The notes under the pieces were generated by a model. That model ran no database searches. It worked only from the letters and a program-made list of their open reading frames with translations, and was not told the DNA's origin. This document shows, piece by piece, positions 3,001 to 24,800 of a stretch of 64,000 bases of DNA (position 1 is the stretch's first letter; each line of letters starts with the position of its first letter). The position numbers and the translations under genes are program-made. Source of the stretch: Lasiosphaeria ovina (Eukaryota > Ascomycota > Sordariomycetes > Sordariales > Lasiosphaeriaceae); the NCBI GenBank assembly GCA_033439765.1, contig JAULSN010000001.1:1-64000 (forward strand). The letters are read 5' to 3'.

Positions 3001-3942
3001 GGACCCTCCAAAAAGGACCTCAACGCTCTGAAACGACAACTGGCCCGAGCCTACGATATCGAAGATTTAGGGCCCGCCCAGTACTTCCTTGGCGTAGAAA
3101 TCGTCCGCCAACGCTCTGAAAGACGGCTCTGGCTTCACCAACGTGCCTATATTACAGAGGCAGTCGAGTACTTCAGGCTTAGCACTACTGGACCAAAAAT
3201 CCCACTTTCCCCGGGCATCACAGGCCCTGACTCACCTGGCCAGCCTCTCAACGCCACTGAAAAGAAGCTCTACTAACGCCTAGTCGGTACTGCTATGTAT
3301 GCTGCAACCTAGACCCGGCCTGATATCGCTTTCAGTATAGGTTGGCTATCTAGGCAGCTACAAGAGCCAGCTATAGGGCATCTCAAGGCAGTCAAAAAGC
3401 TGCTGAGCTACCTGTACGGCTCTCGGGACCTCGCCATTCAGTACGGTCCCTGCAGTAGCCTAGCCCCTGAAGGTTACTCTGATAGTGACTGGGCAGGCTG
3501 TAAGACTACAGCTCGCTCAACCTACGGCTACCTTTTTACCGTTGGAAAAGGTCCTGTAAGCTGGAAATCTAAGCGGGCTAATACAGTGGCCTACTCGACC
3601 CTGGAGGCTGAGTATACAGCACTCATCGAAGCTAATAAGGAGGCTCAGTGGCTCAGAGGACTGTTTACCGAAATACAGCAGCCTCTACAAGGTCCTATAC
3701 CCCTGAAAAGCGACAATACAGGTGCTATAGACACTGCTTATAACCCCAAGCACCATAACCGTACCAAGCATACGCTCATACGGTTCCAAGGGCTAAAAGA
3801 GAGTGTTACGGAGGGCAGTATCACTGTAGACTATATACCTATAGAGGATATGCCAGCCGATGGACTAACTAAAGCCCTTCCTCACGCTAAGTTTGAGAGG
3901 TTCCTAGCACTGCTAAACCTCTCTAAGCCCCCTATAACATAG
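1..3942 (+). pseudogene. Ty1/copia gag-pol polyprotein, 5'-truncated by the window edge
   Basis: One reading frame stays open from base 1 to 3942 apart from stops at 625, 2020, 2215, 2566, 3274 and 3310. I see no frameshift between them. Domains in order: Gag C-terminal region (Lys/Ser-rich, about 190-330); retroviral-type protease with a DTG at 571-579; GAG-pre-integrase with Trp-His at 1130-1135 and CxxC at 1237-1248; integrase core with D, D and E (LEGD, HYDGG, LPERS); a linker with a Pro-Glu-Gln-Ala repeat at 2085-2165; reverse transcriptase with HVDD at 2977-2988; RNase H (SDSDWAG, LEAEYTAL). The domain order (integrase before RT) is that of Ty1/copia. The element would copy RNA to DNA and integrate it, but it is dead here. 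The stops fit Gln or Trp codons changed by C-to-T or G-to-A, which suggests light RIP. The second zinc-ligand His of the pre-integrase appears as Tyr, another C-to-T outcome. The 5' LTR lies outside the window. Confidence 0.93.
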
Positions 3943-3987
3943 AGGGGGTCTTCTAAGCTATAGTACCTAGTACAGCCATAGAGGGGG

Positions 3988-4410
3988 TGTTAAAGTATGG
4001 CTAGTTACTAGGGTTGTAGGTCCTGAAGTGTAGGGCACTGTAGTAGCTGTGTTGGAGTTGTGAGTGTTGTGGCTATTGTGTAGTGCTGAGGGCGCTATAC
4101 CTAGATTATTTACTTTGCCCCATAGCACCCTCTCGAAACCCCTATACGTCTTGGCATACGTAAGACAAGCCCACTAGAAGACTATAGAATATAGAGCTGT
4201 CTACGAAGCCTGTGGGCCTCTAGAACCTTCTAGAGAGCCCACCTTAGGTCTATATAGACCTGTCCTTTCTCTTAGATAGATTTCCTTAAGTAAGTAAGCA
4301 AGCCTCTTGTTGTGAGTACAAAAGAAAGCAACAAGTAAGCACTGCACTCACTACTCTTTGTATTATACTTCTTCTATAATACAACTCCTCTCTGTCTTCT
4401 TCAGCACCCA
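3988..4410 (+). repeat. 3' LTR of the copia element
   Basis: A purine tract of AGAGGGGG ends at 3987 and is followed at once by TGTTA, the usual copia polypurine-tract/LTR junction. The 3' boundary is uncertain: a CA-ending candidate lies near 4395-4410, and no 5' LTR is available for comparison. A TATA-like GTATTATAC lies near 4360. Confidence 0.6.
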
Positions 4411-4634
4411 CAGTTGGTCCCGAAGACCCTGACTGTAGGGCAGAGTCCCCTACAGCCTACGAGGTAGACTGCTGAGCAGAGTCCTCACAGTCTGAGTAGC
4501 AGGCCTATAGCAGAGTTCTACAGACTTGTAGTCAGTCAGCCTGCTTCCCTCAGTGCCTTGCAGAAGCACTGTTGTATCGGACCGTAGGGCACAGCTCCCT
4601 ACAGTCTACCCTGCACTTGATCGACCTACCCTGC
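4411..4634. other. Unassigned repeat-like stretch between LTR and direct repeat
   Basis: No coding region is seen. The stretch holds several internal near-repeats (gggcagagtcccctac-like and a doubled ctaccctgcacttg at about 4608-4640). It is not RIP-saturated, since CA and TG are common. It may be leader sequence of a nested copia copy or another repeat. Confidence 0.4.
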
Positions 4635-4739
4635 ACTTGGTTCCCGATATACGCTACACGCCTTGCTTCCGCTGCGCCTGCTGCCCTGCGCACCCTATAT
4701 AGGTGCTGAGTTCAGGCCTATACAGGAACGTAGTTCAAT
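4635..4739 (+). repeat. Left copy of ~100-bp direct repeat flanking the RIP block
   Basis: This segment is about 80% identical by eye to 21908-22005 in the same orientation. It contains a shared core around ccctatataRgtgctgagttc with a TATA-like motif. It ends next to the left inverted repeat and is not RIP-saturated. It may be part of an LTR or promoter of a dispersed repeat. Confidence 0.75.
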
Positions 4740-4741
4740 AG

Positions 4742-4876
4742 TAGTAAACCTAGTTTAACTATATTACCCGTATAATAGGAGCTTGCCCTTTATTCATTTT
4801 TTATACCTATTCTTTAGACCCCTAATACCTATATACGATACGAACCTTAACCTATATAATCGAGCGGTTTATAATA
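4742..4876 (+). repeat. Left terminal inverted repeat
   Basis: Read forward, this matches the reverse complement of 21413-21548 at roughly 85% by eye. Shared blocks include ttaactatattacccgtat and aatacctatatacgata. Similarity stops sharply on the inner side after tttataata. Most differences are C/T or G/A, as RIP would leave. Confidence 0.85.
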
Positions 4877-4962
4877 TAGGACCTTCGCTATCTCGGCCTT
4901 AAAGGCGGTTTTAAGCTTACGAACGTATAATAATTACTCTAAGTAATAATAAGATAGTAGCT

Positions 4963-5042
4963 TTTCTACTACTTAATAATATAAATAAAGAGTACTATTT
5001 ATTTAAATAGTACTATTTAATAATCTTTCTAAGTAGTATAAT
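4963..5042. repeat. 80-bp palindrome H1
   Basis: This is an 80-bp imperfect hairpin of the family running through the block (arms like tactacttaata...aataaagagtact). It lies between the left inverted repeat and the 3' end of the helicase fossil. Confidence 0.75.
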
Positions 5043-6464
5043 TCGAGGAATTAATTACGGTTCTATACTAGTCTAAATCCGTAAATAGGTAGATTTTCTC
5101 TCGAAATTAGGTAGCGACCTAGCTACTAGATTAGACCCGATCGTTATATAGCTATATAGAGCTATATCTTACCTTACCCGTAGTCATAAAGCGACGATAG
5201 AGAGTAAGGTATAGATCGTAACTACCGTAATACTAGCCTTTTATATATTATATAACCCAGTCTATATCTAACCCCTTATTCGCTATCCTATTCTACCCCC
5301 TTACCCCGACTATATCGCTTACGGGCCTTAATAGGCGCCTTCGTTTATTTACGCTTACTAGAGGCCGCGATAGGCGCCTTCCTAATCTCTATACTAGTAG
5401 CCTCCTCGGCTACCGTACTATCTATAGGCGTTACTTAGGGCGCTAGCTTCTTAGAAGGTCCGGCCTCTCCCTCCGAATCCTCTATATTAATATCGGACTA
5501 ATCCTTATTCGTATCTTACTCGGCCGGACCTTTATCGGTAAGTAGCGAGCCTTATCTAGAGACGGAAACGTCGTCCTCTATATCGATATCGGGAGTCCTA
5601 CTACGGCGCTTATTATAGTCGATATTAGGAACCCGGCCGACGTTAGGCTCCTCGTCGAGGTCGGGGAGTCCGGTCTTACCGGAATATATAAGTTCCTCCC
5701 GGGCGAGACGTATATCTTCCCTCTCCTACTTCTTACGCTTTATAGTTATCTCCTTTACCGCCTACTTAGCTAGCTTTATATCGAGAGGCTTGGGCTTAGG
5801 AATCTTCACTACCTTCTTAGGAGTAGACTTCTCGCCGTCGGCCGCCTTCGCCTTAAGGGCCTTCTTATATATCTTCTACTCGTCTATACGGTAGGGGAAT
5901 AGCTCGTTTAAGGTAGCGATATAGCCGATACTTTCTATCGACTCCCGAGCCCGCTCGTACTTCTAGTTCTAAGACGCCGACGGCTCCCCGATCGAGGCTC
6001 GACCTAGGACTTACGTATACTTCCGCGTACTCTTATTAATCTCCGGTATAAGGGTAAGGACCGACTCCTAAGTAATACTCGAGAGATCTAGCGGCGTATA
6101 TATATCCTTCGTAAACTCCGTATAGTATACGTCGAAGAAGGCGGGACCTATAAATATTATATATTTAGCGACGGCCTCGATTCTCTCCTTCGTAGTATTA
6201 AGGGCTTCTGGCTTATTGGCTATAATTAAGTAGACTAATCGAGAGTAGAATTATCCGATCCGACGTACGCGTTCGCTATTATGGTCTCGAGCCGATTAAG
6301 GCGGCTTTACTACCTAGGAAAAGCGATTAAACGGCTACGTTAGTATAATCTATACCGCCTTATATATATATAGCTATTTAAGTTATAGGGAGAGGATACC
6401 GGGTAGGTTAAGGCGAGGAACTAATTCGACTACTTACTAAATTATATATTAGTATACTTCTCCG

Positions 6465-6544
6465 ATTCTACTACCTAGAAGATTAAATAAAGAGTACTAC
6501 TTATATAGATAGCGCTATTTATTTAATCTTCTAAGTAATATAAT
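6465..6544. repeat. 80-bp palindrome H2 inside a helicase intron
   Basis: The arms pair over about 33 bp around a short loop. On the minus strand a GTTAGT donor at 6562 and a tactaat branch site with tttag acceptor ending at 6437 define a 126-nt intron around it. Joining the exons keeps the helicase frame. Confidence 0.8.
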
Positions 6545-8241
6545 TCGCGGGGCTATACTAACCTTCTTAAGTATTTTATCCTCCTACTAGTCGTTAATAG
6601 TGCCGTTAATCTGGACGAGAAACTATTCGACTAGGGTAAACTATCCGATCCGATATAGCCGGCCGATAAATTAGAGGATCGTCGCTATATTCTAGATTAT
6701 ATATAGGGCGATACCGACGTAGTATACTTTATAGTAGTTTAAACTAGTATTCGATACGGCGGAGTTTAGGATAAGGACGTCGAGGCGTTTAGAGCTATCG
6801 TTCTAGTCCGCCATAATAGTCTCTTACTCGTATAGAGATATACTAGACCGGATCGAGGCTACGACGAAGCTAGCCTTACGGAGGATCGCCGCCAGGTATT
6901 TAGATAGTTAGAGATAGTTAGTATACGTCTAGCCGGTACTAACCCTAGGGATACTTATAGCTAGATCTAAGACGAGTTAATAACGATTAGTACGTACTTC
7001 TTTAGGTTATAGTACTTTATAACCTTCTCTATATAGAAGGTATATATAGGTGCTTCCGATATAAGGAAATGGATTATCGCCGCCCTATCGCCGGCCGGGG
7101 CTAGGTGGCCGGGGTCCTAATTTAGGATCTAGAATATCTATACTAATCCGCCGTCGCTAGTAGTAGTACGCACCCGCTCGACCATATCCACCCCGAGCTT
7201 GGTAGCGCCATCGGCGGCGAGGTTAGCCTTCTCGGCCTAGCGTACGGTCTTATATAACGTATATATATACTTACCCGCTACCGCTACGATCCTCTAGTTA
7301 TATAAGGCCTCGAAGTCTTCCTCGTTTATATCCGTAATCTCGTCGCGCTCGTATATTACGTATTAGGCTTTATAGTCGATCGCTATATACTATAGAGCCC
7401 GGATTAGACCTATACTAAGTACGAGGGTATACTCTCCCCTACTAAGCTCGTCCGTTATATCGTTACCGTCGGGCGGTACTATCGTATAAATATTCCTTAA
7501 GAGGGCGTCCGTCTCCTCGACTACCATTAGGAAGTACGTAACGTAGGCGAGTTCTACCTACGCTATCTTTATCGGAGGGATATTATCTTACGGGAATACC
7601 GGCTACCCGTTAGGTAGCGTTAGACGCGTATTTATACCCCGGTTAACGTAGTAGATACCGGTTTACTGTATTACGTACTCCGTACGGTCGTAGAGCGTAT
7701 ACGAGTCTACTAATATCTTCTAGACTTTAGGGTAAAGATACTACTACTTCTATCCCGTAGTAAGGTACTACTATTTTAATAAGGTAACGACCTTCGCGTA
7801 CTCCTTACTAATCTTAATAATATAATAAGCGTCTCCTGCCTAGTAGCTCGGTACGAAATCCTCTTCTATAATCGAAGTCGTAAAGAGCCCGTCCGGTAAT
7901 TTAAAGACCTCGTATAGGCGTCCCGTAAGCTAGGTTAGGATTCCGTAGGCCTTTATATCGGATACTTTATTATATACGGACGTCGCGGTAGTAAAGCCGA
8001 TACTAAGTTTCGGAATCGCGAGGATTATCGCCTAGTATATCCCTTTAATATTACGAACGATCTAAGCCTTATCGAGCGCGATATTACTAAACTTGAAGTC
8101 GGGTATATCGGGGTCTAGAATAAGCTTGGAACTTATAATCCGCTAAATATAGCCCTCGAACCTATCGCTATATAAGCTACCTTAGGCTATAGTAATGGCC
8201 TCGTTATATAGATATATTAGTAAATATCCTAAATACTATAG

Positions 8242-8321
8242 ATTATACTACTTAGTAAATTAAATAAAGAATACTACTTAAGTAGATAGCGCTCTTTATT
8301 TAATCTACTAAGTAGTATAAT
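8242..8321. repeat. 80-bp palindrome H3 inside a helicase intron
   Basis: This near-perfect hairpin starts attatactac and ends gtagtataat. On the minus strand a GTAAGC donor lies at 8336 and a tactaat branch site follows the hairpin. The acceptor ending at 8177 keeps frame (160 nt). A closer AG at 8200 does not, so the acceptor is uncertain. Confidence 0.78.
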
Positions 8322-8945
8322 CGGGAATAAGCTTACCTATCGCCTAGTTTATACTTCTCTAGTTCTTCGAAATAGTCCTCGTCGTCCTTAGTAATCTCCC
8401 CCTCTTCGTTTTCGGGCCGCGTAGTCTTATCCGGCCGCTAATCTCCGCTATATTCTTCTACGTCGAATTCCTTTATAAACTTCTTTATCTAGTAGTAGTA
8501 TAGAGTTATATAAGACGAGATAACGATATAACTAGCCGTCTTAAGGTCGAGACGCGCCTAATATTATATCTTAATAAGGATCCGAAGCTAGTCGATCGAT
8601 ACGGTCGCCAGCTTCCGCGGGTTATCTTAGGGGAGGTTAGTAATAGTTCCGTAGAAGCTATAGAAAGTAAGACCCGGGAAGTTCTCGTATCCTTCTCGAA
8701 ATATCTAGGCGACGAGGTTAGCTAGTATTACGACGAGCTAGGGACCGGTCTTAATATAGTTTCCCTTCTTATACTCCCTCTTAAGGTATTCTATCCTTAG
8801 ATAGACGTTAAAGAGGTATGTAAACGTCTTACTAGTACCGACCTCGTTTATTAGTATTTAGGATACGAGAGGGGAAGTCTTTATCTAGTATATTATCTAA
8901 GTATCTATATAATATATTAGTAATAACCCTATATTAGAGCCTTAG

Positions 8946-9025
8946 ATTATACTACTTAATAAATAAAATAAAGAGTACTATCTATATAAGTAGTACTCTT
9001 TATTTAATCTATTAAGTAGCGTAAT
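8946..9025. repeat. 80-bp palindrome H4 inside a helicase intron
   Basis: On the minus strand a perfect GTAAGT donor at 9044, a tactaat branch site and a tatatag acceptor ending at 8905 frame a 140-nt intron. Splicing restores frame just before the Walker A motif. Confidence 0.85.
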
Positions 9026-10407
9026 CCGGGAAGAAGATACTTACCGACTAACTAGTACGGTATTATAGCTCTCTAGTTAACTCCGCCAAGGTCCTATTAG
9101 GCCTACTTATATAGCTCTTTAAGCGTACTATAGTTAAACGAACCCTATTTCCGATCGTCGGGGATCGGGTCCGGTCCACGGGCGTCTAGCTCTACGATAT
9201 ACGCCTATACGTCCTCTACTAATATCTATCCTCTAAGCTCTACGGCCTTAATTAATATCTACTCGTCCGTAAACCTTAGTACCTCCTTAAAGGGGTAACC
9301 TCGGGTAATAATCGACTTAATTTAGAAGCTCTACTATAGGTCGTTCGCTACCCGTTCGCGGGTAGTCTCCTAGTCTACGTCCGCGCCGTCGGCTTCGCTA
9401 GCGAGCCTATTTACGAGTAGTTCCTAGGTACCTATATAGTCGCTAAACGACTACTTATTAGGGAAAAATATAGGAAACGTCTTAGCGACGTCTTCCTTAA
9501 TATAGCTTATTACTAGCTAGTAGAGGCGTCCATTCTCGTACTAGACGGCCGTAAGACGGCGGATAAGCTTAACGTCGAGCGGGGGTAGGTCGATATCCTC
9601 CGGCGGGGTACCCTACGATAGGTTAGACCCTCTCGCTACTAGGCGGTTTAGATAGCGGAACGAGTTTACGCCTAAGAGTACTACCGTATAGCGGTATATA
9701 CGCTTAACCGCCTCGGTAGTAGTTAGCTCCTCCTCCTCCTCGACCGTCTTATCCTTACCCTTCTCTAGAGTCTATATAACGTTAATCGTAAATATGGCCG
9801 CTACGTTATATACTACGAGGTGGTGTTCCGCCTTAGTAAGGACGGAGTCGAGGTCCTAGGGACGGAATACCTATACGGGCTTCGCCGTAGCCCTAGAACC
9901 TTCCTAGCCGTTAATAGGGTTCTTACGGCGGCGTTATAGGAAGAATATCAAATAGTAGAAACTACGTAGCTAGTCGTCCGGTACGAAACTACTAATAGCG
10001 TTAGGCTTATTAAAGTCCTATACGAACCGCTTATCCCCGCTAAAGCCGGGCTCTATTATAACGGTCTTAAGATAGAGGAGTATAGTAGCGACGATCGTAA
10101 CGTAGACGTTAATCCTAGTAAGATCCTCTTCGGTCTCTCCGCTAGCGATACCCTTAGTAACGTCGCCCTTACGGATCGTAATAGGCTAGGTCTAGTTATT
10201 ACTCGTAGCTAGCTATATAAATAGTACTATATACGGGTTCTGGTTAAATAGGGCGGGAATTTAGCTATAAACCGATCCCTAGTCGTCTAGCGATATACCC
10301 GCCTATTTCGGCTCGATATTAGCCCTATATCCCGTATTATCCTTTAGGAAGAAGGCGACTAGGCTAAAGATATCCGATACTAGAATAAAGTTAATTAGAG
10401 CTCTTAA

Positions 10408-10487
10408 ATTCTACTACTTAGTATATTAAATAAAGAGTACTATTTATATAGATAGTACTCTTTATTTAATATACTAAGTAGTAGAAT
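10408..10487. repeat. 80-bp palindrome H5 inside an intron
   Basis: A minus-strand donor GTAAGC at 10515 and an acceptor ttctag ending at 10380 define a 136-nt intron. Its exons join in frame, linking the hydrophobic N-terminal segment to the rest of the protein. Confidence 0.78.
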
Positions 10488-11150
10488 TAGAAGAGGGGGT
10501 ATTAATAGAGCTTACTATTTATATTAGTATAATAGGTTAGTAGACCCGCTATCTTATACCCGAGGATTCCCGCGATAGTACCGGCGGCCGCGCCGAAAGA
10601 GAAGAGTATTAGGGCGGCGAGCTTCTGGCCGTCTAGTCGGACCTTCTTCGCGTTCTTAATAAAGTCTACGCTAACGCCGCTATCCTAATTTAGGAACTTC
10701 GTATCCGGGTATACCACCTCGAAGGTCGGGCGGTATTCGCGCTTTAAGGTCTTCTAGTACGCGGGCGAGGGGTTTATAGGTAGTTTAGCGAGATTATAAT
10801 ACCCTATATAGAGGCGGATTCCTTTCTATATTATCTAACTACTCGGGTAGTCGCGCTACTACCGTTTCCAGTCTTTATCGGTCGATATAAGGCGCTATTT
10901 CTCCTACGGCGGGAGCGGAATAATCTAATATAATTAGATCTCCGAGTTATTAACGAAGAACGTTATATAGATAATATCGAAGTTACCGACTATAAGCTTA
11001 AAGACGACCTTCGTCTTCTTCGGAGTTTCGGTAGGCTCTTTCGTAATAGCCTTATCCTTCTTAGGCCGACTACGCCCGCGTTTAGGTTAAGCTATAGGCG
11101 TAACCGTAGCTCCGTCGGAGTCGGAGCCTTCTTCGTCGCTATACTTATCG

Positions 11151-11238
11151 ATTATACTACTTAGTAAAATTTAAAAATAGTACTACTCGAATAGATAGCC
11201 CTATTTTAAAAATACTACTACTATATAAGTAGTATAAT
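11151..11238. repeat. 88-bp variant palindrome H6 upstream of the helicase fossil
   Basis: It has the same termini as the 80-bp family (attatactac...gtagtataat) with a different centre containing ttttaaaa. It lies at the presumed 5' end of the helicase gene. A degenerate partial copy follows at 11386-11435. Confidence 0.7.
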
Positions 11239-11710
11239 CCTTAAAAAGAATAGAAGGGAGAGTTTAGTTAGTAATATAACTATCTACGGGGGCGAGGAAG
11301 TAGGCCTTATATAGTTACGTACGGGAGCGTATAGTAGCCCTACTTCTAGTCTCTACCTACTAGATTTACGAAGGTAAGACGAGAGTACTACTCCGTTAAG
11401 TAGTACTATTAATAAATTATACTAAGTAGTAGTATTTAGAAAAGGCCTTATTATATATTATATTATATAACTATTATATATTATATAACTATTACTTACG
11501 CCTTGGCTTCGCCGCTATACTAACGGACCGAGTCCCCTTACTAGTCCCGTACCCCGTACCCGGACGCGGGTCCTTCTCGCTATCTATCCGAGGCCCCGCG
11601 CCGGAACCCCGGCTTAGTACTAAGCAGTTATACCGAGTATAGTTATAAAGCTAATACTAATTACCTCTCTATAGGAGATACGTTCGGATACGGTTCTAAT
11701 ATATAATAAG

Positions 11711-11914
11711 AGAGATAGAAGACGACCGAGATAGGAGATCGAAATAGAAGACCGAGATAGAAGATCGAGATAGAAGACGACCGAGATAGGAGATCGAGAT
11801 AGAAGACCGAGATAGAAGATCGAGATAGAAGACCGAGATAGAAGACCGAGATAGAAGACCGAGATGGAAGACCGAGATAGAAGACCGAGATGGAAGACCG
11901 AGATAGAAGACGAC
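11711..11914 (+). repeat. 14-bp tandem repeat (gatagaagaccga-type)
   Basis: About 14 imperfect copies of a purine-rich unit, gagatagaagacc, with gac/gat and tag/tgg variants. It is a simple satellite between the helicase and the next fossil gene. Confidence 0.85.
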
Positions 11915-11939
11915 TATTATTTATAGTAGGCGAGGCTTC

Positions 11940-14900
11940 GCCCGTAGGCGATCTAGGCCTTCGCGGTATCGGCGTTAGTAACTCTATCTAGATAACCGGG
12001 CACTAGCGCGGGAGCCCTTACGGCCTTATACTCGTCCTTCGCGACGGCGACGGCTCTCGCGATAGAGATCTACGATAAGCCCCGCGGTACGGTATCGATA
12101 GCCTATAGAGGATAAAAGACGAATAATATCCGTATATATTACTTACTTACCTACTATATCGAGCCGTTACTATCTAGGTAGGGTAGCGCGCTATACTACT
12201 CGAAGAAGCGGTACGCGAGTATCTCTCTTAGCCGTCCGACCGTCGCGGAAGTATACCCTTTTACCCGAGGCTATCGGAGGCTATACGGTAGAGCGTCCGG
12301 TACGATAGGTGCTCGGTATATACCCGTCCGAACCCGATATCGGTACTATCCTACGTCTAGACGAAGAAGGCGTCTATCTACTTAAAGCGTCTCTTATTAC
12401 CCTTAACTATCCCGACTATCCCTACCGACCTTCCTAGCCTCTTCTCGTAGTCCCGGGAAATAAAAGGAGCGGCCGCTAACCGGGGTTAGGGGCTACTTCT
12501 ACTTATCGCCGAGTAGCTTAAGGAACGCTACTTAGCGATAGTTCTAGAGTAGGAGGTAGGCGTATTTCTCGAGGACGAACTCGGAGACTTCGCGCGGCGT
12601 CTAGTCGTCGATAATCTCTAGGAGCTCGTCGAGGAAGGACCGGGTCTCCTAGTACTCTATAATAGGTAGATACCTCGTAACGACTTAGAAGCCCGGAAGA
12701 GTTACGCTACTAACGTACTCCTTAGAGATCTTTAACTACTATAGTCGACTACGCTATAGTAGAAGAACCCGAAGCCGAGCTGGTTTATCGTCTCTCGTAG
12801 CCCGAAGCCGGGCTTCCTAGTCTCGAGGGTAGAGCGGCGTAGCGGGGTATTAAGTATTTAGGCCTCGCTTAGCGGGAGATACGAGATGAAGTGGCGTAGG
12901 CCGAGGACGAGTAACCTATATAGTCTCGCGACCTCTAACGGCGTAGCCTACTTAGGACTATATAGAGCCCTAATAGTATCGAGTACTATAAGGTACTTAT
13001 AAATATTACCCCGTATAAAGTCCCTAAACTCGTCGGTCCTATAGATATAGAAGGCGTCGGAGGGGAACGTAATATTATTTACGTCGGCCTACGCTTCCCC
13101 CGAGGAGATAACCCTAGTAAATTACCCCGAGCTCTAGACCCGCGTCTCCCGGGATAGCTCGCCGAGGAATTCCGCCTAGCTCTCGTCTTCTTACTAGATA
13201 ATAGTATACGAGGCCGAGGGTTACGCGGAGTTCGGTACGCTACCTAAAGTTCTCGGTCTTAGTATACTATAGAGTATACGCGACGCGCCTCCTAGATCGG
13301 ATATCCGCTCTCTTAGCGGCTAACCGGTCGTTATTCGTCTTCTAGAGGATATTAATACTATTATAGTCGGCCTCGTTATAGCCTAGGTTAGCGATACCGG
13401 GGTAGGAGAACGGATAGATCCTCTATACGTTAAAGCGCTCCTTAAGCGGGCTATACGTCTATATATATACTAGCCCGTACGCGGCGTATAGGTAGTTACG
13501 CTTAGGCTCGGCCGTAAGCGTTACGGCGTCCTAAGGAGGCCGATAGGGTACTCGGTTAGGGTGGCCCTCTATACGGGAGGTGGTTAGAACGGCGTATTAC
13601 GAGACCCCCCGGCCGCTACTATCGCCTAGTCGTCCTCCCCGGTATCGGAGTCGCTCGCGCTTTCCGACCCGCGCCTACCGGCTCGGCGAGGGTCTCTAAG
13701 CTACCCGTCTAGTACGAACTTTACCGTATTATACGCGTAGTAGCGCTTAGCGAGTAGCGTCGAGCCTTACGGATAGTTCCCGTCGGGAACCGATATAACC
13801 TCTACTACTAATATCGATATACTATCGGTCCTAGTTCTCGATAGATAAGACCTCGTCGAAGTACGTAGACTATCCGTACTAGAAGTCTCGGATATACTCT
13901 AAGAGGGTCCTCTACCGCTACGTCTCGAGTTTTAGGCCCTTACCGTCGTAGAGGAAGAATATACTATAGAATAGGCGGAGGGTGGAGTCTCGGGGGTCGT
14001 CGGTCTCGAACGCGTAGGCGGTCTCGAGCGTCCGTACTATACGGTACCAGACTACGGTATCTTTCGACGGGTTAATAGTAATACCGATCGGCCTCCTACG
14101 CGCGCCGCCGTCCTTACCGGACCTCTCTAGGTTAGCCCGGGAAGCGTTCTATACCGCGAGGAAGTCCGGGGGGATATACTAGGAGGTCTAGGAGATACGG
14201 TATCCCTAGTATACCTTACCGACTCTACCCTATATAAGAGTTCCTCGAGGGCGGGGCGTAGGAGATCGTTATAGAACGTCGTATACGTCTTATCGCTAAG
14301 GAAGATAGAATACTTAGGCTAGTATATTACGGGGAAGAACGCGTAGATTAGGTAAGACTAGGTGCCGGTAGTAGCGAATAGGATATAGGGGATCTTATAA
14401 ATAGGGACCTCGGTTATCTTCCCCTCGACCTCTAGATCGAATTAGAGGTAGATAGAATACCCTAGGAGCGTAGTAGGCTACGCTATAACTAGAAGACTAA
14501 TTAACGTACGGAAGGAGTTTAGGTCCAAGAAGACGGCGATAGAGCTATCGATATCCTTAAGCGAGTATTATAGAGGTAGCTTATAGGGCGTATCCCTATA
14601 GAGGTATATCTCCTCGCCCTCTTATAGCGGTCCGGAGAAGAGGTTCTAAAGGCGGCCGGGGCTAGGGAAGGCGAGGCGATCCCTATTAAGCTAGAGACCT
14701 AGGATATCTTCGCGGGTACGATAGATCCCTAGATTAAGATCTAGCTCGGTAGCGCTCGAGGGGTAGCTCCTATCTTCGACGTTATAAGTATAATATAGCC
14801 CCTAGTAGCGCGTATATAATCTCCGATAGCCCTCTTCGTCAAGAGCGTAGGCTACCGGCGGATACGGAATTATACCGACGTAAAGTATAGTAAATAATAC

Positions 14901-15130
14901 GGCGGGCGAGCCTACGCTTACTATCTTAGGCGCCTCGGATCTACTCTAATATAGAGGTAACTAGTAGGAGCCGTAGTTACTACCTAACGGGGCCGTTACT
15001 ATTATTAAGCTACTCCGAGATATAATCCGGGAATTCCTACTCCTCCTACTCTTATAACGGCTTAGATCCCTACCGGAGGGTATAGCTATCCTACTCCGTA
15101 TCGCTCTATAATCTACTAGAGGGAGATTCG
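11940..15130 (-). pseudogene. Unrecognised long coding fossil B
   Basis: The minus strand carries one long interpretable frame from about 15130 down to about 12000. Residue composition is protein-like: aromatic- and Leu-rich, with stretches such as IPYILFATTGT and FDLEVEGKITE near 14330-14470. Interruptions are almost only TAA/TAG. I do not recognise a domain. It lies downstream of fossil C and upstream of the helicase in the same orientation. Many Tyr residues may have been His or Cys before mutation, which blurs motif recognition. Confidence 0.5.
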
Positions 15131-15374
15131 GAAGGCTCCTCGTTCTCGTCGCCGGCCGGAGTAGCCCTATAGCGGTCCTCCCTTATCTTCTACCTTTTTA
15201 GAGTTACCTAGGGGTTAGTAGGGGTAGGACGTTTATTCTAGGACCTAGATAGATACGAAAACGAGTAAGTATTAATTAATATTAGTAGTTATATTTCGGG
15301 AGAGAGATACCTAACTATAAGTCCTTATTAGCTCCCGCCCGGTAGTTAACGCTAAGTCGCGTAAGCGTAGCTAG

Positions 15375-15664
15375 TAAGGCCGTAGGTCCGGCCGGGGATA
15401 ATAACCTCGATCCTACTAATACTAGAGGTGGTCGAGGTTTCCGCTAAGCGTTCGGTAAGGCTAGGAGAGTATAGGTATTATAAATACCGTAGTATATTAC
15501 GTAGAATAGTAGTTGGAGTAAGGGTACTAGCCGGCTATATTATAAGGAGTACGGCCGGTAAGGCTATGGGCCTAGCTAGGGATAATAACCTCGATCCTAT
15601 TAGTTCTAGAGGTGGTCGAGGTTTCCGCTAAGAGTTCGGTAAGGCTAGGAGAGTATAGACGTTA
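15375..15664 (+). repeat. 184-bp-period direct duplication
   Basis: Two ~105-bp copies (15375-15480 and 15559-15664) share gataataacctcgatcct and gaggtggtcgaggtttcc. They lie between fossils B and C. A 67-codon open frame across them (15428-15631, plus strand) is chance. Confidence 0.75.
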
Positions 15665-15949
15665 TACCCCCTTACGAGGTATAGTAGTAGTAGAGTTTTC
15701 GGAGTCTTATATATATAGGAGAGAGAGGTTAACTATATAAGAGAAGGAGTCTAACTATTATATAAACCCGAAGGTAGGATAGCTATAGATATAATACTCG
15801 GATTAGAAAGTCTCTTCCCCGTACTTATAGAATCCCCTAGACCCTATTACGAACGTAGCCCGCGATACGCTACTATAGCGTCTATACCCCCGAGCTCTCT
15901 TATAAGTTATCTTAATATCGTATAATACTCGATTAGGCTCCGCTCTTAT

Positions 15950-17830
15950 AGTAATAAGGTTTAACCCGCCTCGTATTCGTCCGAGATAGCCTAGGGCGAA
16001 ATGCCCGTCCCTACCTATATCCGAGCCCCTCCTAGCGCTACCTTAGACCGTAGAGCGAGAACTCGTATTTCCCGGTCTCGTCGGACTAACTACCCGGCCT
16101 TAGATATCTCGTAGAGATAATTTCCTAGCTATCCTAACGCCGAGGTAACGCTCGTATCTCCCTAGCCTATTAGACGAATCGCTGGCGTCGAATCTCCTAG
16201 CCGTAGAGTATCTCTACCCTTATCCGTATTTATAGCGTTAAGGCCTAGTCCGAGCCTCGTAGGATATTTAGCCCCCCCGGCCTCGGAACGTTACGGGGTC
16301 GCGTTTATATAGATAAGGCCCCCGGCCTTAGGATATCTCGGCGTCGCGTTTATATAGATAAGGCCTAGTACGTAGAGATCGCGTCGGAACTAAGTATCTA
16401 TACGACCGTCTAATATAGGGCGATACGTCGTCGAGCGCTATAGAGATTTATAAAATTTATATATAATATCTCTTCGGCCCCTCTTAGCGGTCTCTAGTCT
16501 AAATCGGAGAAGTTTACCTCCCTAGCTACGTCTCTATCGTTAGTCTCTAATCTATCCCCGTCTTATAATTTAATAACCCTTAGTACGGGGCTCGTACTAG
16601 CTCCGCTCGTTACTAACTCCTATACGCCCTTAGAACGGAACGTCGAGATTTCCCCTACGTCTAGAAGCGCGAGGCCTAAGGTCGGTCGTAGGTCGCTCTA
16701 TTCGAAGATAGGCTCTACTAAGCTACCTAGCGCCTCGGAGTAGAGGTCGGTAATACCGGGAAACTCCTACTTCATCTTTACGATAATTATAGAGAGCGCT
16801 TACCCTCCTTCTTTTACTACTACGATACGTACCCGATAGAAGAGTACGAGTAGCCTACTCCGAGGTACGAAAGCTAATATACCCTCTCCGAAATACCGAA
16901 CTAGGGTAAGGAGGGGTTTATAGCGGGAGGCGGTAATAGTGAATTTCTTATTAGAAATACCTAATTAGTATACGACGAACGAGGTTAGGTATGACTTATA
17001 CGTACTACCCCGTTTACCGAGGAGTTTATTATCGCTAAGGAATTCCTAGAAGGTATTAGAATAGCGAAGGACCTTGAGCTCTTCTAGCCGGTTCGCGTCC
17101 CGTAGGTTAATGGATTCCTAAATCCGGACTAGCTCGAGGTACGCCTTAAGGTGCCGTAAGTCTATATACCTTAGACCTTCGGCCTCTTCCTATTTTAAGC
17201 CGCTCTATAGTATTATAAACCGTAATAACGTCGTATAGCCTAGCTCCTAGAGCTCGGAAGTAATAGTTATCGATATCGTTAATACGGTTTTATACTCCTT
17301 ACGCCTTATATAGTACTCTTTATATAGCGACCGGAAGTAGTCCTATCCTTACTAGCTAAAGATATAGTTAAGAAGCGAGAGGACTATTAAGATCTCCGCT
17401 TCTCGATCGGCCATCTCGGGCTACTATAGAACCTTATCGCTAACGGTCTAGACTATAGAGTATAGGCGATAGTACTCCTTATAAATAATAAGGGGATCTT
17501 AGGGTTTAAGGTTCTTAATAAGCTAGCTTAGCGTAGATACCTCGACTCTCTTAACCCGCTTAGCTTTCGGCTTAGCGCTAGACGTAGTAGGTCTCTTATA
17601 ACCGCTACTCGTACTAAGTCCTTCGTCGTCGTTATTACTATCGTCGCCGTCGTCGTCCTCTAATCCTTATAAGTCTCTATACGGCTAACTACTATCCCTA
17701 TTACGTAATTTAATACCGATATTCCTACCGTCCCTACTATTATATTCAGATCCCGGTAGAGATTCGTTATATCGGGTACCGTCTATATAGTCGTCGGTAT
17801 CGTCCTAGGATCCTAGGGAAAACTTATTAT
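15950..17830 (-). pseudogene. Unrecognised coding fossil C
   Basis: The minus-strand frame starts with an acidic Asp/Asn/Glu stretch (about 17600-17680), then a Lys-rich linker, then about 250 residues of helical-looking sequence (examples MADREAEILIVLSLLNYIFS near 17400 and FGEGILAFVPRSRLLVLFYR near 16860). Stops are TAA/TAG only. I do not recognise the family. No DDE, tyrosine-recombinase or RT motif is apparent, but RIP would mask His and Cys ligands. Confidence 0.45.
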
Positions 17831-18497
17831 TATATAATAGCTATAAACGAATTTAGAATATATATACCGTTATAAGATTCCCTACTTCTCGATTTCTATA
17901 CGCTTCGTAGAAATTTATCGACTTCGTCGAATATAAGATAACGAGAATCGGGTTATAATAACGTAGAATATCGGATAAAAAGATACTTTAATTCTCCTTT
18001 AAATTATTTAAGAGAATAATCGGGTAGTTCTATACTTCTACCGCTCGTTTATATCGTTTAGGTTATTAGAATTATAGTAAGAGTAGTAGAAATAATATAT
18101 AAGGATCGAAGCTAGTATAGGTTAAAACCGAGGAGGAGGAAAAGAAAACTTCTAATAGCTAGAAGGTAGAGAACGCGCTAAAAAATTATAGGTTTAGTAG
18201 CTACTCTTATTTAGCGTTGGCCGTCTTGGAATTGACCCCGCCTTTCTTAGTTATCTTAACGAAAATCGTCGATTAAACTATCGAGGAAAATATTTCCGAC
18301 CTCCTTACGCTCGGAAGTAGCCCCGCGACGTTAATACCTCTTAGCTCTATTTATTCTATTTCCCTAAATAGCCCGCGCTAAGTACGTATAGTAAAGGACT
18401 AAGTATAGATATAAGGGCTAGTATAGTCGTAGGTCTAAGTAGGGTAGGAGGGACTAACTCAACTACCTATTAAAATATATACTAGAATATTTCTAGA

Positions 18498-19004
18498 TTT
18501 ATACTACTTAGAAAATTAAATAAAGACTACTATTTATATAGAAGGCGCTCTTTATTTAATTTTCCAAGTAGTATAAATAAATAAATACTATTATTTATAT
18601 AGATAGCGCTCTTTATTTAATTTTCTAAGTAGTATAAGTAAATAAATACTACTATTTATATAGATAGCGCTCTTTATTTAATTTTCTAAGTAGTATAAGT
18701 AAATAAATACTACTATTTATATAGATAGCGCTCTTTATTTAATTTTCCAAGTAGTATAAGTAAATAAATACTACTATTTATATAGATAGCGCTCTTTATT
18801 TAATTTTCCAAGTAGTATAAGTAAATAAATACTATTATTTATATAGATGGCGCTCTTTATTTAATTTTCTAAGTTATATAAGTAAATAAATACTATTATT
18901 TATATAGATGGCGCTCTTTATTTAATTTTCCAAGTTATATAAGTAAATAAATACTACTATTTATATAGATAGCGCTCTTTATTTAATTTTCTAAGTAGTA
19001 TAAT
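18498..19004. repeat. 80-bp palindrome plus seven 61-bp tandem copies of its right half
   Basis: A complete hairpin occupies 18498-18577. The motif agtagtata then recurs at 18567, 18628, 18689, 18750, 18811, 18872, 18933 and 18994, an exact 61-bp period. Each unit carries the ctctttatttaatttt arm. Flanks on both sides resemble the flanks of H2, including the splice-site region, so this looks like a second copy of that helicase intron whose hairpin has expanded. Confidence 0.9.
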
Positions 19005-19686
19005 TAGCGGATATAAATAAACGAACCTTTCTAAGTATTTTATCCTCCCGCTATTCGTAGGAATATACTTCTAACTTCTTAAATAATAATTACTATATAT
19101 CCGACGACGAGGAGCCTAATTATCCGGTTAAAATAGAGACTAGGCTCCGAGGGCCTCCGAGTACTTAGCGGGCGAGCTAACCTATATATATATACTTATA
19201 TACGGCGGCTATAGCTAATTATAATACCCGGGATAACCTTTTTCTCGATTTACCTTCAAACTACTATATAGTATTTATACCTCTATTAAAAATAAAAATA
19301 AAGGTACTCTTGAAATATACTAAAATAGGGCTTTCTAATAGTACTACCCGCGTTCTATTTAGATAAAGATTAGCTACGATATAAGGTAAAATAGAAAAGG
19401 ATTCCTACGAAAATAAACGTATAGACCATTTTTATAACGGGGCGCCCCTAACCCCTCGCTTTTACTTATCGCTAACGCCGAACGAAGGGGAAAACGCGTA
19501 AAATAGCGCGACCGCGTACTTTTAAAAAAATAATAATACTCTCTAACTTTATCTTTACTCTTTTTTAATTATAATCGCGTACTTATATATAACCCCGTAG
19601 ATAACTACGCGTAACGACGAGATAATATATTTAAGATAAGTACTTTAATCTTTTATCTTAATCGTGGATTTTAATATACTTAGGAG

Positions 19687-20245
19687 ATCGAGATCGGAAT
19701 AGCCCGAGCGCTTTAGTATCTTAGTATCTCGTAAAGCTAGGATCGGAGTAGCCCGAGCGCTTTAGTATCTTAGTATCTTATAAAGCTAGGATCGGAGTAG
19801 CCTAAGCGCTTTAGTATCTTAGTATCTCGTGAAGCTAGGATCGGAGTAGCCCGAGCGCTTTAGTATCTTAGTATTTCGTAAAGCTAGGATCGGAGTAGCC
19901 TAAGCGCTTTAGCATCTTAGTATCTCGTAAAGCTAGGATCGGAGTGGCCCGAGCGCTTTAGTATCTTAGTATCTCGTAAAGCTGGGATCGGAGTAGCCCG
20001 AGCGCTTTAGTATCTTAGTATCTCGTGAAGCTGGGATCGGAGTGGCCCGAGCGCTTTAGTATCTTAGTATCTCGTGAAGCTAGGATCGGAGTAGCCCGAG
20101 CGCTTCAGCATCTTAGCATCTCGTAAAGCTAGGATCGGAGTAGCCCGAACGCTTTAGTATCTTAGTATCTCGTAAAGCTAGGATTAGAGTAGCCCGAGTA
20201 CTTTAGTATTTTAATATCTCGTAAAGTTAGGATTAGAATAGCTTA
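19687..20245 (+). repeat. 49-bp tandem array, about 11 copies
   Basis: The unit gctaggatcggagtagcccg... recurs every 49 bp (19736, 19785, 19834 and on). Each unit contains the doubled ttagtatc motif. Copies decay toward the right end. Most copies differ by C/T and G/A changes. Confidence 0.92.
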
Positions 20246-20399
20246 AGTATTTATTTATATTTTTTTAAAGACTTTAATATATTAATATTTTAAATTTTTT
20301 TATCTTTAAAAAACCTTAAACCTAAACCGAAAGCGCTTATTTAAATTACTTACCTTTTAAAAAATCATCTTTAACGATTTTTTTCATCCGTCCTTCTTC

Positions 20400-21360
20400 T
20401 CTTAACGCTTCTTACTTTTACGCTAGAACTATTAGTTATTAATATTAATTACCGCGTTAATATACTCCCGTAACGTCTCCGGGCGAGGCGTCTTATAGAG
20501 TTCGTCCTTAATATAATCCTTTAAGCTATTATAGAATATAAGTAACTATCCCTAGACTAACTATTTAAGACGTAATATATAGGTCTAGAACTTAATTATA
20601 TACTTAACTATTAAACGAGTTTATCTTAGCCTCTTAATCTACTCTTTAGCCTTCTTCTAAATATAACGTTTTATAAAGAATTCCCTTATTTACTTAAGGA
20701 CTCCTTCTACTCCCTTCTAGATAGTAACTTATATAACGGGGTTCCTATCTCTTACTACTTACGTTAACGCCTTTTAGTATAGTTCGAACTAAACGGTTAC
20801 TTTTCCGACGAGTCGTATTCCGACGTATATTACTCCGTCCTTCTAGAGTAGGATTTCATTAATATTATACGTTAGGAAGGAGAGTACTAAATCCTTCTAA
20901 TTCTCGAACTTATCCTTATCTCTATTATAGAGCTTAGGGTACGGGATCTTTAGCTTCTTCTTAGGAGGAGCCGGGGTAGGTAGAGGTAGCGCCGCCCTAG
21001 CTATTTCTAGTCCTATAATCCTTTCTACGGCTACCCTTATATTATAATCGTATCTCCTTACTTACTCTCTTAGCTAGGCTATTTCGTTCTAGAGCTATTC
21101 GTTCGCGGCTATATTATTACTTATCGAAAGAGGCTCTAATTATTATATAAGGCTAGTAATCTCCCCGTTATTAGCTAGCTCTTCTAGTATTAGAGCGTCT
21201 ACGTCCTGAACTTCCGTATCCTTAGGTTAGACTAATCCGGCCTTATTACTATTACTATTAGACTCGTCGTCGCTAAACGATCTAACTTCTTCTTCTAGCT
21301 TAGTATTTAGAAGGACCGTATCCTCTCTAGGTATAATTAGGTTATCGTATATATAAGAGT
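20400..21360 (-). pseudogene. Retrotransposon Gag-like coding fossil
   Basis: The minus-strand frame reads, across TAA/TAG stops, as a charged N-terminal region, a coiled-coil-like segment, a Pro/Lys linker and then a module matching Ty3/gypsy Gag: a basic Pro-rich lead-in ending YPKLYNRDKDKFEN near 20930, a hydrophobic core and a basic tail. No protease, RT or integrase frame follows on the minus strand. The next sequence is the 49-bp array. It may be a Gag-only gene of the large element, or the end of a truncated Ty3 insertion. Confidence 0.6.
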
Positions 21361-21412
21361 ACTCTATTCAATTAATACTAAGGGTCTTAGAAACTAAAGA
21401 AGTAAGTAACGT

Positions 21413-21548
21413 ATTATAAACCGCTTAACTATATAGATTAAGGTTATATCGTATATAGGTATTAAGGGTTTAAGAAGTAGATATAAAGAATAAATAAAGG
21501 GTAAGCTCTTAATATACGGGTAATATAGTTAAATTAGGTTTATTACTT
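21413..21548 (-). repeat. Right terminal inverted repeat
   Basis: This is the inverted partner of 4742-4876. It lies about 50 bp upstream of the Gag-like fossil on the minus strand, so it could also be a promoter or leader region. Confidence 0.85.
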
Positions 21549-21907
21549 AAAGTATATAAGTATAAAGAATATATATTACTTACTTAAGGAATTAAGTAAG
21601 CTCTATCTAAGACCGTAACTACGGTTATTATATATATCTATCTCTAATAGCTAATAAGAGCCTAGCTCTTACTTACCTACCGTATCGGTATTACCTAACA
21701 CTAAGCAGTACCAAGTAGTCGGGCAACCGTTTACCCGGTGTTAAGTAATACCCTCTTACCGGGCATATCCTAATTGGTTAGGTAACTACGCGCCCGGCGC
21801 TAGTTAAGCTTTCCTCGCCGGGCATGCGCTAATTAGCAGGGCGGGTCCCGCACCGGACCTCCCCGCACGTGCAGGCTGCCCAGTATGTGACGGGATCCGT
21901 AATATAT
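21549..21907. other. Transition from RIP-saturated to normal DNA
   Basis: No gene is seen. CA and TG dinucleotides return gradually from about 21690 and are normal by 21840. Near-repeats of a cccggYgcta-like motif occur at about 21735-21830 and may be a short dispersed repeat. Confidence 0.5.
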
Positions 21908-22005
21908 ACTTAGTTCCCGACTACGCTACCGCTTCCGCTCCGCCTACTGCATTATGCACCCTATATAAGTGCTGAGTTCAGGCCTATATAGGCACGCAGT
22001 TTAAC
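21908..22005 (+). repeat. Right copy of ~100-bp direct repeat
   Basis: Direct-orientation partner of 4635-4739, with the same ccctatata and gctgagttcaggcctata cores. It overlaps the stop codon (22001-22003) of the neighbouring kinase gene, so the repeat now supplies that gene's end. Confidence 0.75.
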
Positions 22006-23419
22006 AAATGGGCATAGTGCCGTATACCTCCCTTAGTTGTTCCCAAGTCACGCCGTTTCCGTAAATAAGCTTCGCAATCATCCTACCAGCCCAAAGACTT
22101 CCTTTTGGCGAAGCCATATACTGGCGGTACGTAATCTCGGCACCTCTAGAAGCTATATAAGTAGAGAGGGGCGTAAGATTCGGACGCAGTGCTGTGTCTA
22201 CCTCTAGGTTATCTAGCGGCGGCTTATTTTCCTGACGTCTCTCCGTTTCCCTTATATACTCCACAACAAGATCCCTCAGCTCGATGATGGGACGATTCTC
22301 CTCTTCTGACAACCCTGGGAAGGCGACAAATTCTGGGCAGACTGATAGCTGCTCAAGGGGGGCAGCCTGTGCACTGCTCCAGTCGATAATTCCCGTTAGA
22401 TTATACTCGTCATCAAAAAGCATGTTGCCGTAATGCAGGTCGAGATGACATAGGGGGAAAGGGCCTCGGACCCTATCTTCAATGATAATGTGGGTTAGCG
22501 CCATTTTCAGCACCCAACATGCCGTCAGCCAGTCTGGGTCATCTGGATGCATGGCAATCATCTGCCGATTGTCGCTCTGTCTCTGGTTGTAGAAATATTC
22601 CAGCGATGTTTCTAGGGGGCCAGGAGAAGAGTGCCAGGCCATAGCCGTGATCTCGACGGGTTGATCGGCATTCTCTCCACACCAAAGGCGCCCAATGCGG
22701 CTGAAGGTGAGATTCTGGAGCTCCGCGAATATATTTGCAAGTTGCTTGGCCACTTTGGCATGAAATTGGTGAGGTATGACTGTCGCCACCCCTTTCGGAA
22801 GGGTGCGGCCACCCAGGTACTCCATGAAAATGTACGGGTAGCCAAAGGGTTGGTTCGCGGACGCTTCGAAGTCGAAGACCTGAGGGATCGGGATAGTGGT
22901 ATGCTTTTTGACGATTTTCATCGTAGCGATCTCACTCAGCATCGAGGTTCTATCGTCGTCGTCGAGGGTTTGGTGCGGGATCCGAACGATCCAAAACACA
23001 TCGTCTGAGAATGCGAGCTCCAGGACCAGATTATCGAAACCGGACGCAAAGTGTGTTAGATTAATGCTACAATCGACATGCGAGGGTACGTATGGTTGGT
23101 ATTTTCTCCGCGATTCTATTCCGCGTATCTTCAGATGCTCGAAGTTTGCTGTGGAGAGAAGGAGCTCGATTCGCTTATGCTTATCCGAATCTGGACTTAT
23201 GGTGGCAAAACCTTGCCAGTGGTTGCTTGGTCTTTCCATCTCGCCAGACAACTTCAGTGGAGAAGACAGTTTAATAAGAGCTCGCGGGCTTATGGGCTTG
23301 TGGGCTTGTGGGCTGAGAGAAAGCAATGAAAATAGAGCATGCGACGGTGAAGAAAGCGAGGAGAGGATTGTTTCGCAGTCAATGTTGGAGTTGGATAGAG
23401 GCACGTGACTGCGGAACAA
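22001..23419 (-). CDS. Aminoglycoside phosphotransferase/choline-kinase-like protein (APH family)
   Basis: An intronless 472-residue frame. The kinase-like fold is marked by a Brenner-type HLDLHYGN at residues 325-332 (catalytic Asp327, Asn332) and a metal-binding IIDW at 344-347. A hinge-like segment ending FMEYLGG lies at 198-204. Fungal members phosphorylate unknown small molecules, and few have known substrates. The Ser-rich first 60 residues look unlike the family. Met61 (codon at 23239-23237) is an alternative start. The C-terminus ends inside a dispersed repeat, so the last few residues may not be ancestral. It is the first intact gene beyond the RIP block and shows no RIP-type stops. 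Confidence 0.85.
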   Translation of the reverse strand: MFRSHVPLSNSNIDCETILSSLSSPSHALFSLLSLSPQAHKPISPRALIKLSSPLKLSGEMERPSNHWQGFATISPDSDKHKRIELLLSTANFEHLKIRGIESRRKYQPYVPSHVDCSINLTHFASGFDNLVLELAFSDDVFWIVRIPHQTLDDDDRTSMLSEIATMKIVKKHTTIPIPQVFDFEASANQPFGYPYIFMEYLGGRTLPKGVATVIPHQFHAKVAKQLANIFAELQNLTFSRIGRLWCGENADQPVEITAMAWHSSPGPLETSLEYFYNQRQSDNRQMIAMHPDDPDWLTACWVLKMALTHIIIEDRVRGPFPLCHLDLHYGNMLFDDEYNLTGIIDWSSAQAAPLEQLSVCPEFVAFPGLSEEENRPIIELRDLVVEYIRETERRQENKPPLDNLEVDTALRPNLTPLSTYIASRGAEITYRQYMASPKGSLWAGRMIAKLIYGNGVTWEQLREVYGTMPIC

Positions 23420-24800
23420 CGAAACCCCGCTATGCCTCAGGCTGATGTTGATGGATGTTGTATTTGAACTCTCTTAAATTTGAGAGACTCTGTGCCGTGA
23501 ATTCAGCTATCACACTAATCCTAAGCTTCTAATTGGCCCAGGCCACTACTGGAACCACTCAATCCTCGGCCTCGGCGGTGCTGGCAGCGGTGGCAACGAC
23601 AATGGTAATCAGACGGCTGGACTAGCGTATGTTGCCAGCCTTCTTCGCGCCGCGAGTGGTCTAGCGTGTGCTACAGGTCTTTGTGATCCTTCCCCTCGTT
23701 GTTCTTGGTGTTGAGAAACCCGCACGCCTTGTAGGTAGTTGCCGGATCGCACCTTGTAAACGCCAAAGCTGGCAAGTCGGCCAAAGTCTTCGAGGGCCTC
23801 CGTCAGATCATCGAGACTGCTGAATTGCGAGGCGGCTCATGGTCTGGACCGGGGTTCGAGAGCGGCGGCGGCGCCCCGGTATCGCTTGATTGGTCCGAAT
23901 CGCTGTTAAGCGCTATCACTGCCTGTAGGTTAGCGCTGTATCCTGCTGAAGCGAGGCAACTTACCGTTGGCGATGGCGGCAGATTGATCGCGTTGGACGG
24001 CGTAGTTTAAGTGCGATTAGAGACAAGATTACGATCATTAGATGGAGCCACGGCTGTGTAGGCGCCTGGGCCACGGCTGTGTGGGCGCCTGGGCTACGGC
24101 GCCGCCGGATTAGGTGGAGCGGCACGATTGGTGGATTCCTGCACCTTCCCGCAGCACACAATCCACAGATGAGCCACTGTCTCCCCCGCGTGGATCTGCT
24201 GTCTGGCGCTCTCTGTAGAGTTGCGCTTGCCTAGATGAGGACTGACGAGTGGGGAATTTCACCTTGCGTTCTGCCCCTCTGCGGATCCGTACCATCTCCA
24301 CAATTCTATGAGATGCATGCAATTGGACAGTCCTCCAGATGTTGCGGTAAGGCTGGTACCAACAATCTGGGCGGCAACACGGTTTCACCCACTATGAGCC
24401 GTAGGCGCTAATGTGGTCCTCGGGATTCACCAACATATTTTATTCTTCCATATGAACAACTCGCAAATAACCACATGTAGCCTGCTAAGCGCTCAAGCTG
24501 ACCTGTTGGTCCGTCAAACAACTAGCTCGTTGGCCCTTACGCTATACTGTTGGTCCTCAAAATAACCCTCGCTCTGCTCGTTAACCATCTCGTAAGAGAA
24601 GCGCGAAACACGAAATAGGAGACCAACAATCATTTCGGCAGCGCTACGGCCCCGTCCACGTAGTTGGCCGCAGCGACTTATCATCTATCACGACAACCCC
24701 GGAGGAGGTCTCTCCAGCAGGTCTCAACTGCTTTCCATCATCTCCAAATAGAGATGTACGTCTGAGGCAGAACTCCAATGGCGCTTAGAGCTTTCCCAAC
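23420..24800. other. Intergenic with possible gene fragments
   Basis: No convincing gene. Two plus-strand stretches look faintly coding: a Gly-rich frame at about 23535-23710 and a second frame at about 23740-24010, joined by no obvious intron. They may be remains of one decayed gene. A duplicated ggcgcctgggccacggctgtgt motif lies at about 24045-24095. Confidence 0.35.

Follow-up and report, generated by a model that had tools for sequence, protein, structure and literature searches.

The first 64,000 nucleotides of contig JAULSN010000001.1 of the ascomycete Lasiosphaeria ovina (assembly GCA_033439765.1; this whole stretch is the window) hold an interval, 4742-21548, that an initial annotation, made from the sequence alone, had taken for one large transposon bounded by inverted repeats and combining a SNF2 helicase, a Gag-like gene and two unknown genes. 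At a probability of about 0.8, the interval is instead a composite in which a subtelomeric unit with a SNF2-family gene fossil (4877-20344) lies between two pieces of a single Ty3-type long terminal repeat (LTR) family. The unit itself is best read as subtelomeric and like the regions of telomere-linked helicases, with SNF2 in place of the usual RecQ. It would have spread to several chromosome ends, and its copies have since been ruined by repeat-induced point mutation (RIP). The window copy sits between oppositely oriented fragments of the Ty3-type family, a Copia element interrupting the left LTR. Coordinates without a prefix are those of the window, contigs are otherwise given as C with a number, and the index used for RIP is (CA+TG)/(AC+GT). 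The three parts of the composite are:

4740-4876, + strand: Ty3-type LTR fragment, sense strand +, forming the left arm of the inverted repeat; 86% to inverted 21412-21547
4877-20344, no strand assigned: RIPped subtelomeric repeat unit of 15.5 kb; 90-96% blocks at C7, C18 and C30; index 0.06
21412-21904, - strand: full 493-bp Ty3-type LTR, delimited by genome matches and extending outside the claimed element

The inverted repeat

The repeat seen at both ends is real: 4740-4876 and inverted 21412-21547 match over 137 bp at 86% (BLAST, E 1.5e-43), and a repeat search of the window gives the pair 4740-4840 and 21447-21547 (101 nt, 87%). It does not bound an element. With 21300-21700 as genome query, 41 of the 41 matches listed, self included, extend beyond 21548 (copy numbers are lower bounds, scoring having covered 40 of 124 candidates), and the complete repeat is 493 bp long, the right arm being its first 136 bp. 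The left arm seems terminal at 4740 because a Copia element occupies 1-4739 and cuts the LTR fragment; at three other contig ends (C7, C18, C30) this piece is 230 bp long. A solo LTR at C4:402020-402512 (493 bp) has the 5 bp CTTTC on either side, a short target duplication, and none was found at the LTR pairs looked at on C28. Inside a relative on C28, the domains found on the strand that matches are, in order, reverse transcriptase (RT), RNase H, integrase zinc-binding and Tf2-type SH3, the RT-RNase H-integrase order lying at C28:3197001-3200000, minus strand, with an integrase zinc-binding score below its cutoff. Decayed members of the family number at least in the dozens genome-wide (44 and 41 matches listed).

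The repeat bounding the claimed element is thus the LTR of a Ty3-type retrotransposon, and not a terminal inverted repeat (TIR), since each arm is part of the same 493-bp LTR and the right one continues outside. LTR behaviour of the repeat is what the initial annotation had itself named as telling against its element. A TIR DNA transposon was considered and rejected, its supposed termini being LTR pieces of which the right one extends to 21904. A Ty3-type LTR retrotransposon accounts for both the supposed TIR and the gag, with no essential difference from that known system, and the locus is a clear example of how nested LTR fragments can mimic a giant TIR transposon. Elsewhere, at C28:3195592-3196155, two LTRs of the family stand head to head with few bases between, making a palindrome.

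Copies of the unit and their location

Sequence matching 4877-20344 recurs in 90-96% blocks at C7, C18 and C30, with partial copies at C8, C12, C23 and C29. A 30-base pattern of the proximal end, sought through the 51.7-Mb genome with up to 3 mismatches, gave eight matches (control, 0), and all eight proximal ends are 2.4-29 kb from a contig end in the same orientation, the C1 and C7 copies being at contig starts. The C8 copy meets (TTAGGG)n directly, the junction corresponding to 10956 of the window and so falling within the SNF2 fossil. The contig ends are presumably chromosome ends, with a telomere visible on C8 only, and the unit would have spread from end to end. At the tip of C30 (C30:3161900-3162221) the repeats are not clean TTAGGG but degenerate and TTAAGG-like.

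RIP is evident in all eight copies, and it hit copies that were nearly identical: six pairwise comparisons among the four at the window, C7, C18 and C30 count 612-1158 transitions and 6-9 transversions. The index is 0.06 in the unit against about 1.2 in DNA from 24 kb on, and 0.00-0.23 in the parts at C8, C12, C23 and C29 against 0.95 in an un-RIPped fragment on C6. A distal second SNF2 copy was tried as a less damaged source of the gene and rejected, having a GC content of 12-17% over most of its length; at C7:3000-8000 and at the C30 tip this second copy is RIPped far beyond the window copy. A 5.7-kb insertion in the C18 unit copy (C18:11408-17091) is not RIPped (index 1.06), and is therefore a later arrival.

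Edges of the unit

20304-20344, no strand assigned: proximal end of the unit; 20314-20328 is telomere-like CCTTAAACCTAAACC, and the last shared bases are GCGCTTATTTAA

Position 20344 behaves as a defined end. In all eight proximal ends GCGCTTATTTAA forms the final common bases and in all eight the flanks differ, the window flank being the middle of a gag, the C7 flank a piece of the unit's own sequence (16719-17220) and the C29 flank non-RIPped DNA (GC 0.52, index 1.09). The C12 flank gives weak matches to AT-rich C7 and C30 sequence and, when flanks were set against each other, the only shared repeat was between C30 and C8, beginning at least 91 bp from the edge. The gag at the window junction is absent from all seven other proximal ends, no telomere array stands at the proximal join in any of the eight flanks, and no tRNAs were found in the unit flanks. 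The telomere-like stretch is 16-30 nt inside the end. The edge is not wholly uniform: AT follows GCGCTTATTTAA in six of eight ends, C8 and C29 lacking it, and the C29 copy has three extra bases just within the end.

The other edge, 4877, is probably a defined end as well, on two contexts, a second and more heavily RIPped unit on C30 starting exactly there beside a different neighbour and ending near 11302. By eye, no terminal inverted repeat links the 4877 and 20344 ends.

The SNF2-family gene fossil

5042-11500, - strand: SNF2-family gene fossil, traced by codon-position signal and read-through, by tblastn with the public relative P0003 and by an un-RIPped relative on C6

The coding blocks of the fossil on the minus strand are approximately 11250-10481, then 10398-9022, 8959-8312, 8250-6541 and 6460-5042, in alternating frames. 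Six-frame Pfam scans of the damaged window sequence give no SNF2, and none of the 57 matches to PF00176 across the genome is inside the window. Recognition goes by two steps, through an un-RIPped fragment of the gene on C6 (1384 bp, 83%, gapless, index 0.95) and from there to P0003 (159 aa). The C6 exon scores 19.8 bits against PF00176 (E 4.6e-4), under the cutoff of 24.9, which P0003 passes at 25.8; P0003 in turn aligns with the C6 exon (42%) and, by tblastn, with window 8857-8501 (33%). Homology thus marks the window fossil as a predicted SNF2 family member.

Other searches added little. In the protein database the read-through of the fossil matched none of 7982 scored candidates, the long frame around the C6 exon none of 576, and the exon alone two of 117. 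A PDB sequence search with the C6 exon gave none at E <=1, NCBIfam one weak helicase match for that exon and none for P0003, and a search of viral contigs with P0003 none confirmed.

Several observations on related genes are also pertinent. RecQ-like helicase open reading frames (ORFs) (L029 2-1034) adjoin the C6 fragment, the sole SNF2 piece that escaped RIP; they match TIGR00614 (E 1.3e-16, under the full-length cutoff) and WRN and RecQ chains in PDB from E 1.5e-8. A public gene model, P0002 (B0T24DRAFT_600317), lies over the RIPped SNF2 fossil on C18, several of its pieces matching at 100%, and the gaps between its matched pieces include two hairpins of the kind described below. Other SNF2 domains with 9-10 in-frame stops, at C23:5701720-5702571 and C23:5499968-5500837, are possible further RIPped genes.

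Hairpins and introns

The shared hairpins reported throughout the interval by the initial annotation are there, five singly (4963-5043, 6443-6546, 8241-8322, 8945-9033 and 10385-10487) and others as an array at 18475-19005. Each of the four frame changes of the SNF2 fossil coincides with a palindromic hairpin of about 80 nt:

10370-10534, - strand: probable intron, its hairpin coinciding with a frame change; GTAAGC lies upstream and CTAG downstream; z -10.95
8902-9045, - strand: hairpin-bearing intron, the un-RIPped relative having GTAAGT...CTAAC...ACAG; z -5.9
8197-8336, - strand: hairpin-bearing intron, the un-RIPped relative having GTAAGC...CTAAT...GTAG; z -8.0
6415-6565, - strand: probable intron, its hairpin coinciding with a frame change; GTTAGT lies upstream and CTAAT...TTTAG downstream; z -4.8
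4963-5043, - strand: further hairpin near the distal end, lacking clear splice sites

Judged from the sequence of the un-RIPped C6 fragment, two of the hairpins clearly sit in predicted introns, and the two C6 introns resemble each other from the donor through the hairpin. Six hairpins were folded (four of the five single ones of the window and two from C6), with z from -4.8 to -11.0, and for each, none of 200 shuffles was as stable.

A 25-base arm pattern, allowing up to 3 mismatches and so missing more distant copies, gave 81 matches, namely 76 in unit copies, four in the C6 fragment and one on C9 (control, 0); one of the C6 hairpins as query found the same places (15 matches). The C9 copy (C9:119930-120007; L040 2930-3007) belongs to this hairpin family but stands alone, in no unit, and implies that the hairpin can stand outside the unit. 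Hairpin introns would here have multiplied within a single gene. Introner-like elements, by comparison, are near-identical introns in many unrelated genes, whereas 80 of the 81 arm matches are in unit copies or the C6 fragment. The symmetrical sister introns and stwintrons of Hypoxylaceae, as described in the available part of PMC8469720, are alike in being similar introns with long inverted repeats. Those occupy many genes, however, while the arm pattern is confined to its own family, and the sequence differs (compared by eye).

Weighing the explanations

The notion that SNF2, Gag and two further genes belong to a single large inverted-repeat transposon draws on the 137-bp arms at 86% and on SNF2 and gag fossils sharing a strand, yet with the repeat an LTR extending outside and the unit at seven other contig ends without this gag, hardly anything speaks for it now. 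A related claim, that of a large element belonging to no described family, survives in part: there is a large recurrent unit with the SNF2 gene, perhaps other genes and a precise proximal end, which could not be matched to any described element family with the searches used, though it is not TIR-bounded. As to how that unit reached several ends, end-to-end recombination and joining through a fixed terminus are about equally likely. The former explains location and stacking; the latter explains these and the common last base, but the unit yielded no enzyme of mobility. When it was scanned against Pfam in six frames, stops being taken as X, there was a single chance-level match to a domain of unknown function; in no frame was RT, transposase or recombinase scored (RIP damage lowers sensitivity, as for the transposase result), and there was no hallmark gene of Polintons, KDZ or Plavaka in these general scans, the families not being sought individually. 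Some weight attaches to this negative, since RT was recognised by the same method in an equally RIPped Ty3 interior (index 0.08). An Rfam search over 1-24000 at gathering threshold also gave no match.

The unit may, at rather less than even odds, be mobile, attaching to chromosome ends or breaks by its fixed proximal terminus while telomere addition, further copies or truncation affect the free distal end. The invariant GCGCTTATTTAA before a gag middle, a unit fragment or non-RIPped DNA fits this, as does the start of the second C30 unit at 4877; the missing enzyme, the two contexts only of the 4877 edge and the irregularities of C8 and C29 speak against it. A more specific and distinctly tentative proposal would make it an undescribed type of mobile element specific to chromosome ends, devoid of terminal repeats and detectable RT, whose fixed proximal terminus joins broken or eroded ends, whose distal end is free for telomere addition and stacking, which encodes an SNF2 ATPase, and whose hairpins (in introns and in the array near the joining end) are possible recognition sites of its machinery. 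A telomere-attaching retroelement like FoTeRs and MoTeRs or like Terminons, with RT unrecognisable after RIP, would share the fixed attached end, the adjoining tandem arrays and the telomere-like stretch just inside the end, but appears improbable given that no RT was scored in any frame of the unit although the positive control worked, and that the junction flanks are not telomere repeats.

Several facts also weigh against the preferred composite of a subtelomeric SNF2 unit between LTR pieces. Telomere repeats are at only one of the eight ends (C8), while C24 has a telomere array and no unit match among the matches listed. C18 is a 26.8-kb contig, so that any locus on it is near an end. Not every relative is terminal, as the 49-bp repeat of the unit is also found about 109 kb from the C30 end, and the C6 piece of SNF2 (1.4 kb) is internal to its contig, at 309 kb. 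The SNF2 homology depends on one scored relative barely above the cutoff, and end-to-end recombination does not explain an identical last base with different flanks.

Relation to known systems

Telomere-linked helicases are of the RecQ family. Their regions resemble the unit in having a repeated helicase-type gene near several chromosome ends, tandem repeats and one telomere-meeting copy. The family is RecQ there and SNF2 here, RecQ-like ORFs lying beside the C6 fragment and none being scored in the unit, hence ‘works like’ and not ‘is’. By that analogy the SNF2 protein may once have acted at chromosome ends, the presumed place of action of telomere-linked helicases.

Fungal telomere-linked helicases and FoTeRs are treated in PMC12857005, where, in the portion available, FoTeRs bear variable number tandem repeats and co-occur with telomere-linked helicases. 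In Terminons the attached end bears short stretches of telomeric sequence in reverse complement (PMC6431247, in part). With both, the unit shares a chromosome-end location, a defined attached end and tandem repeats (same partial sources), and from both it differs in having no scored RT and non-telomeric junction flanks, those elements being RT-bearing and telomere-attached. Subtelomeres of filamentous fungi are the subject of PMC8381367, and their absence in Trichoderma reesei of PMC4812632 (excerpts in each case). A brief literature search found no account of SNF2 as a subtelomeric or telomere-linked gene, the accessible part of PMC2441463 holding nothing of the kind, and no literature on Lasiosphaeria ovina telomeres. 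If the fixed proximal end reflects true mobility, this would be a new mode of capping or repairing chromosome ends around an SNF2-type ATPase; even as a plain subtelomere, it would have an SNF2 gene in a niche usual for RecQ telomere-linked helicases.

Other features of the interval

11720-11911, no strand assigned: 13-bp tandem repeat, 14.5 copies
13850-15299, - strand: tentative gene fossil Y, weak codon periodicity
16251-17900, - strand: tentative gene fossil X, weak codon periodicity
18517-19003, no strand assigned: 61-bp tandem array, 8 copies, built of hairpin sequence
19692-20233, no strand assigned: 49-bp tandem array, 11 copies
20345-21411, - strand: truncated gag-like remnant of a Ty3-type element, from frame signal and residues judged by eye
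1-4739, + strand: Copia-type retrotransposon running off the contig start; RVT_2, E 9.6e-32, in ORF 2569-3276

The coding content first proposed thus holds for the SNF2 fossil, by the two-step homology, and, by eye, for the gag-like fossil, both on the minus strand, and much less so for the two unknown genes, X and Y. A search for un-RIPped paralogues found none of X and none of Y, with one weak outside match for Y on C27 (E 0.009). The gag-like frame directly adjoins the LTR and is cut off at 20345, where the subtelomeric unit starts. A Pfam six-frame scan over 19600-24000 gave no gag match, its sole match being an APH gene, and the name gag-like is tentative, given for the position beside the LTR and for residues read by eye.

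The Copia element is hardly RIPped on the index used (0.95). At 21908-22004 about 100 bp are 80% like its end at 4635-4738, a second Copia LTR piece that adjoins the Ty3-type LTR. Just inside the retroelement, in non-RIPped DNA, 22001-23473 on the minus strand is an intact ORF of 490 aa with an APH phosphotransferase domain (E 4.6e-17).

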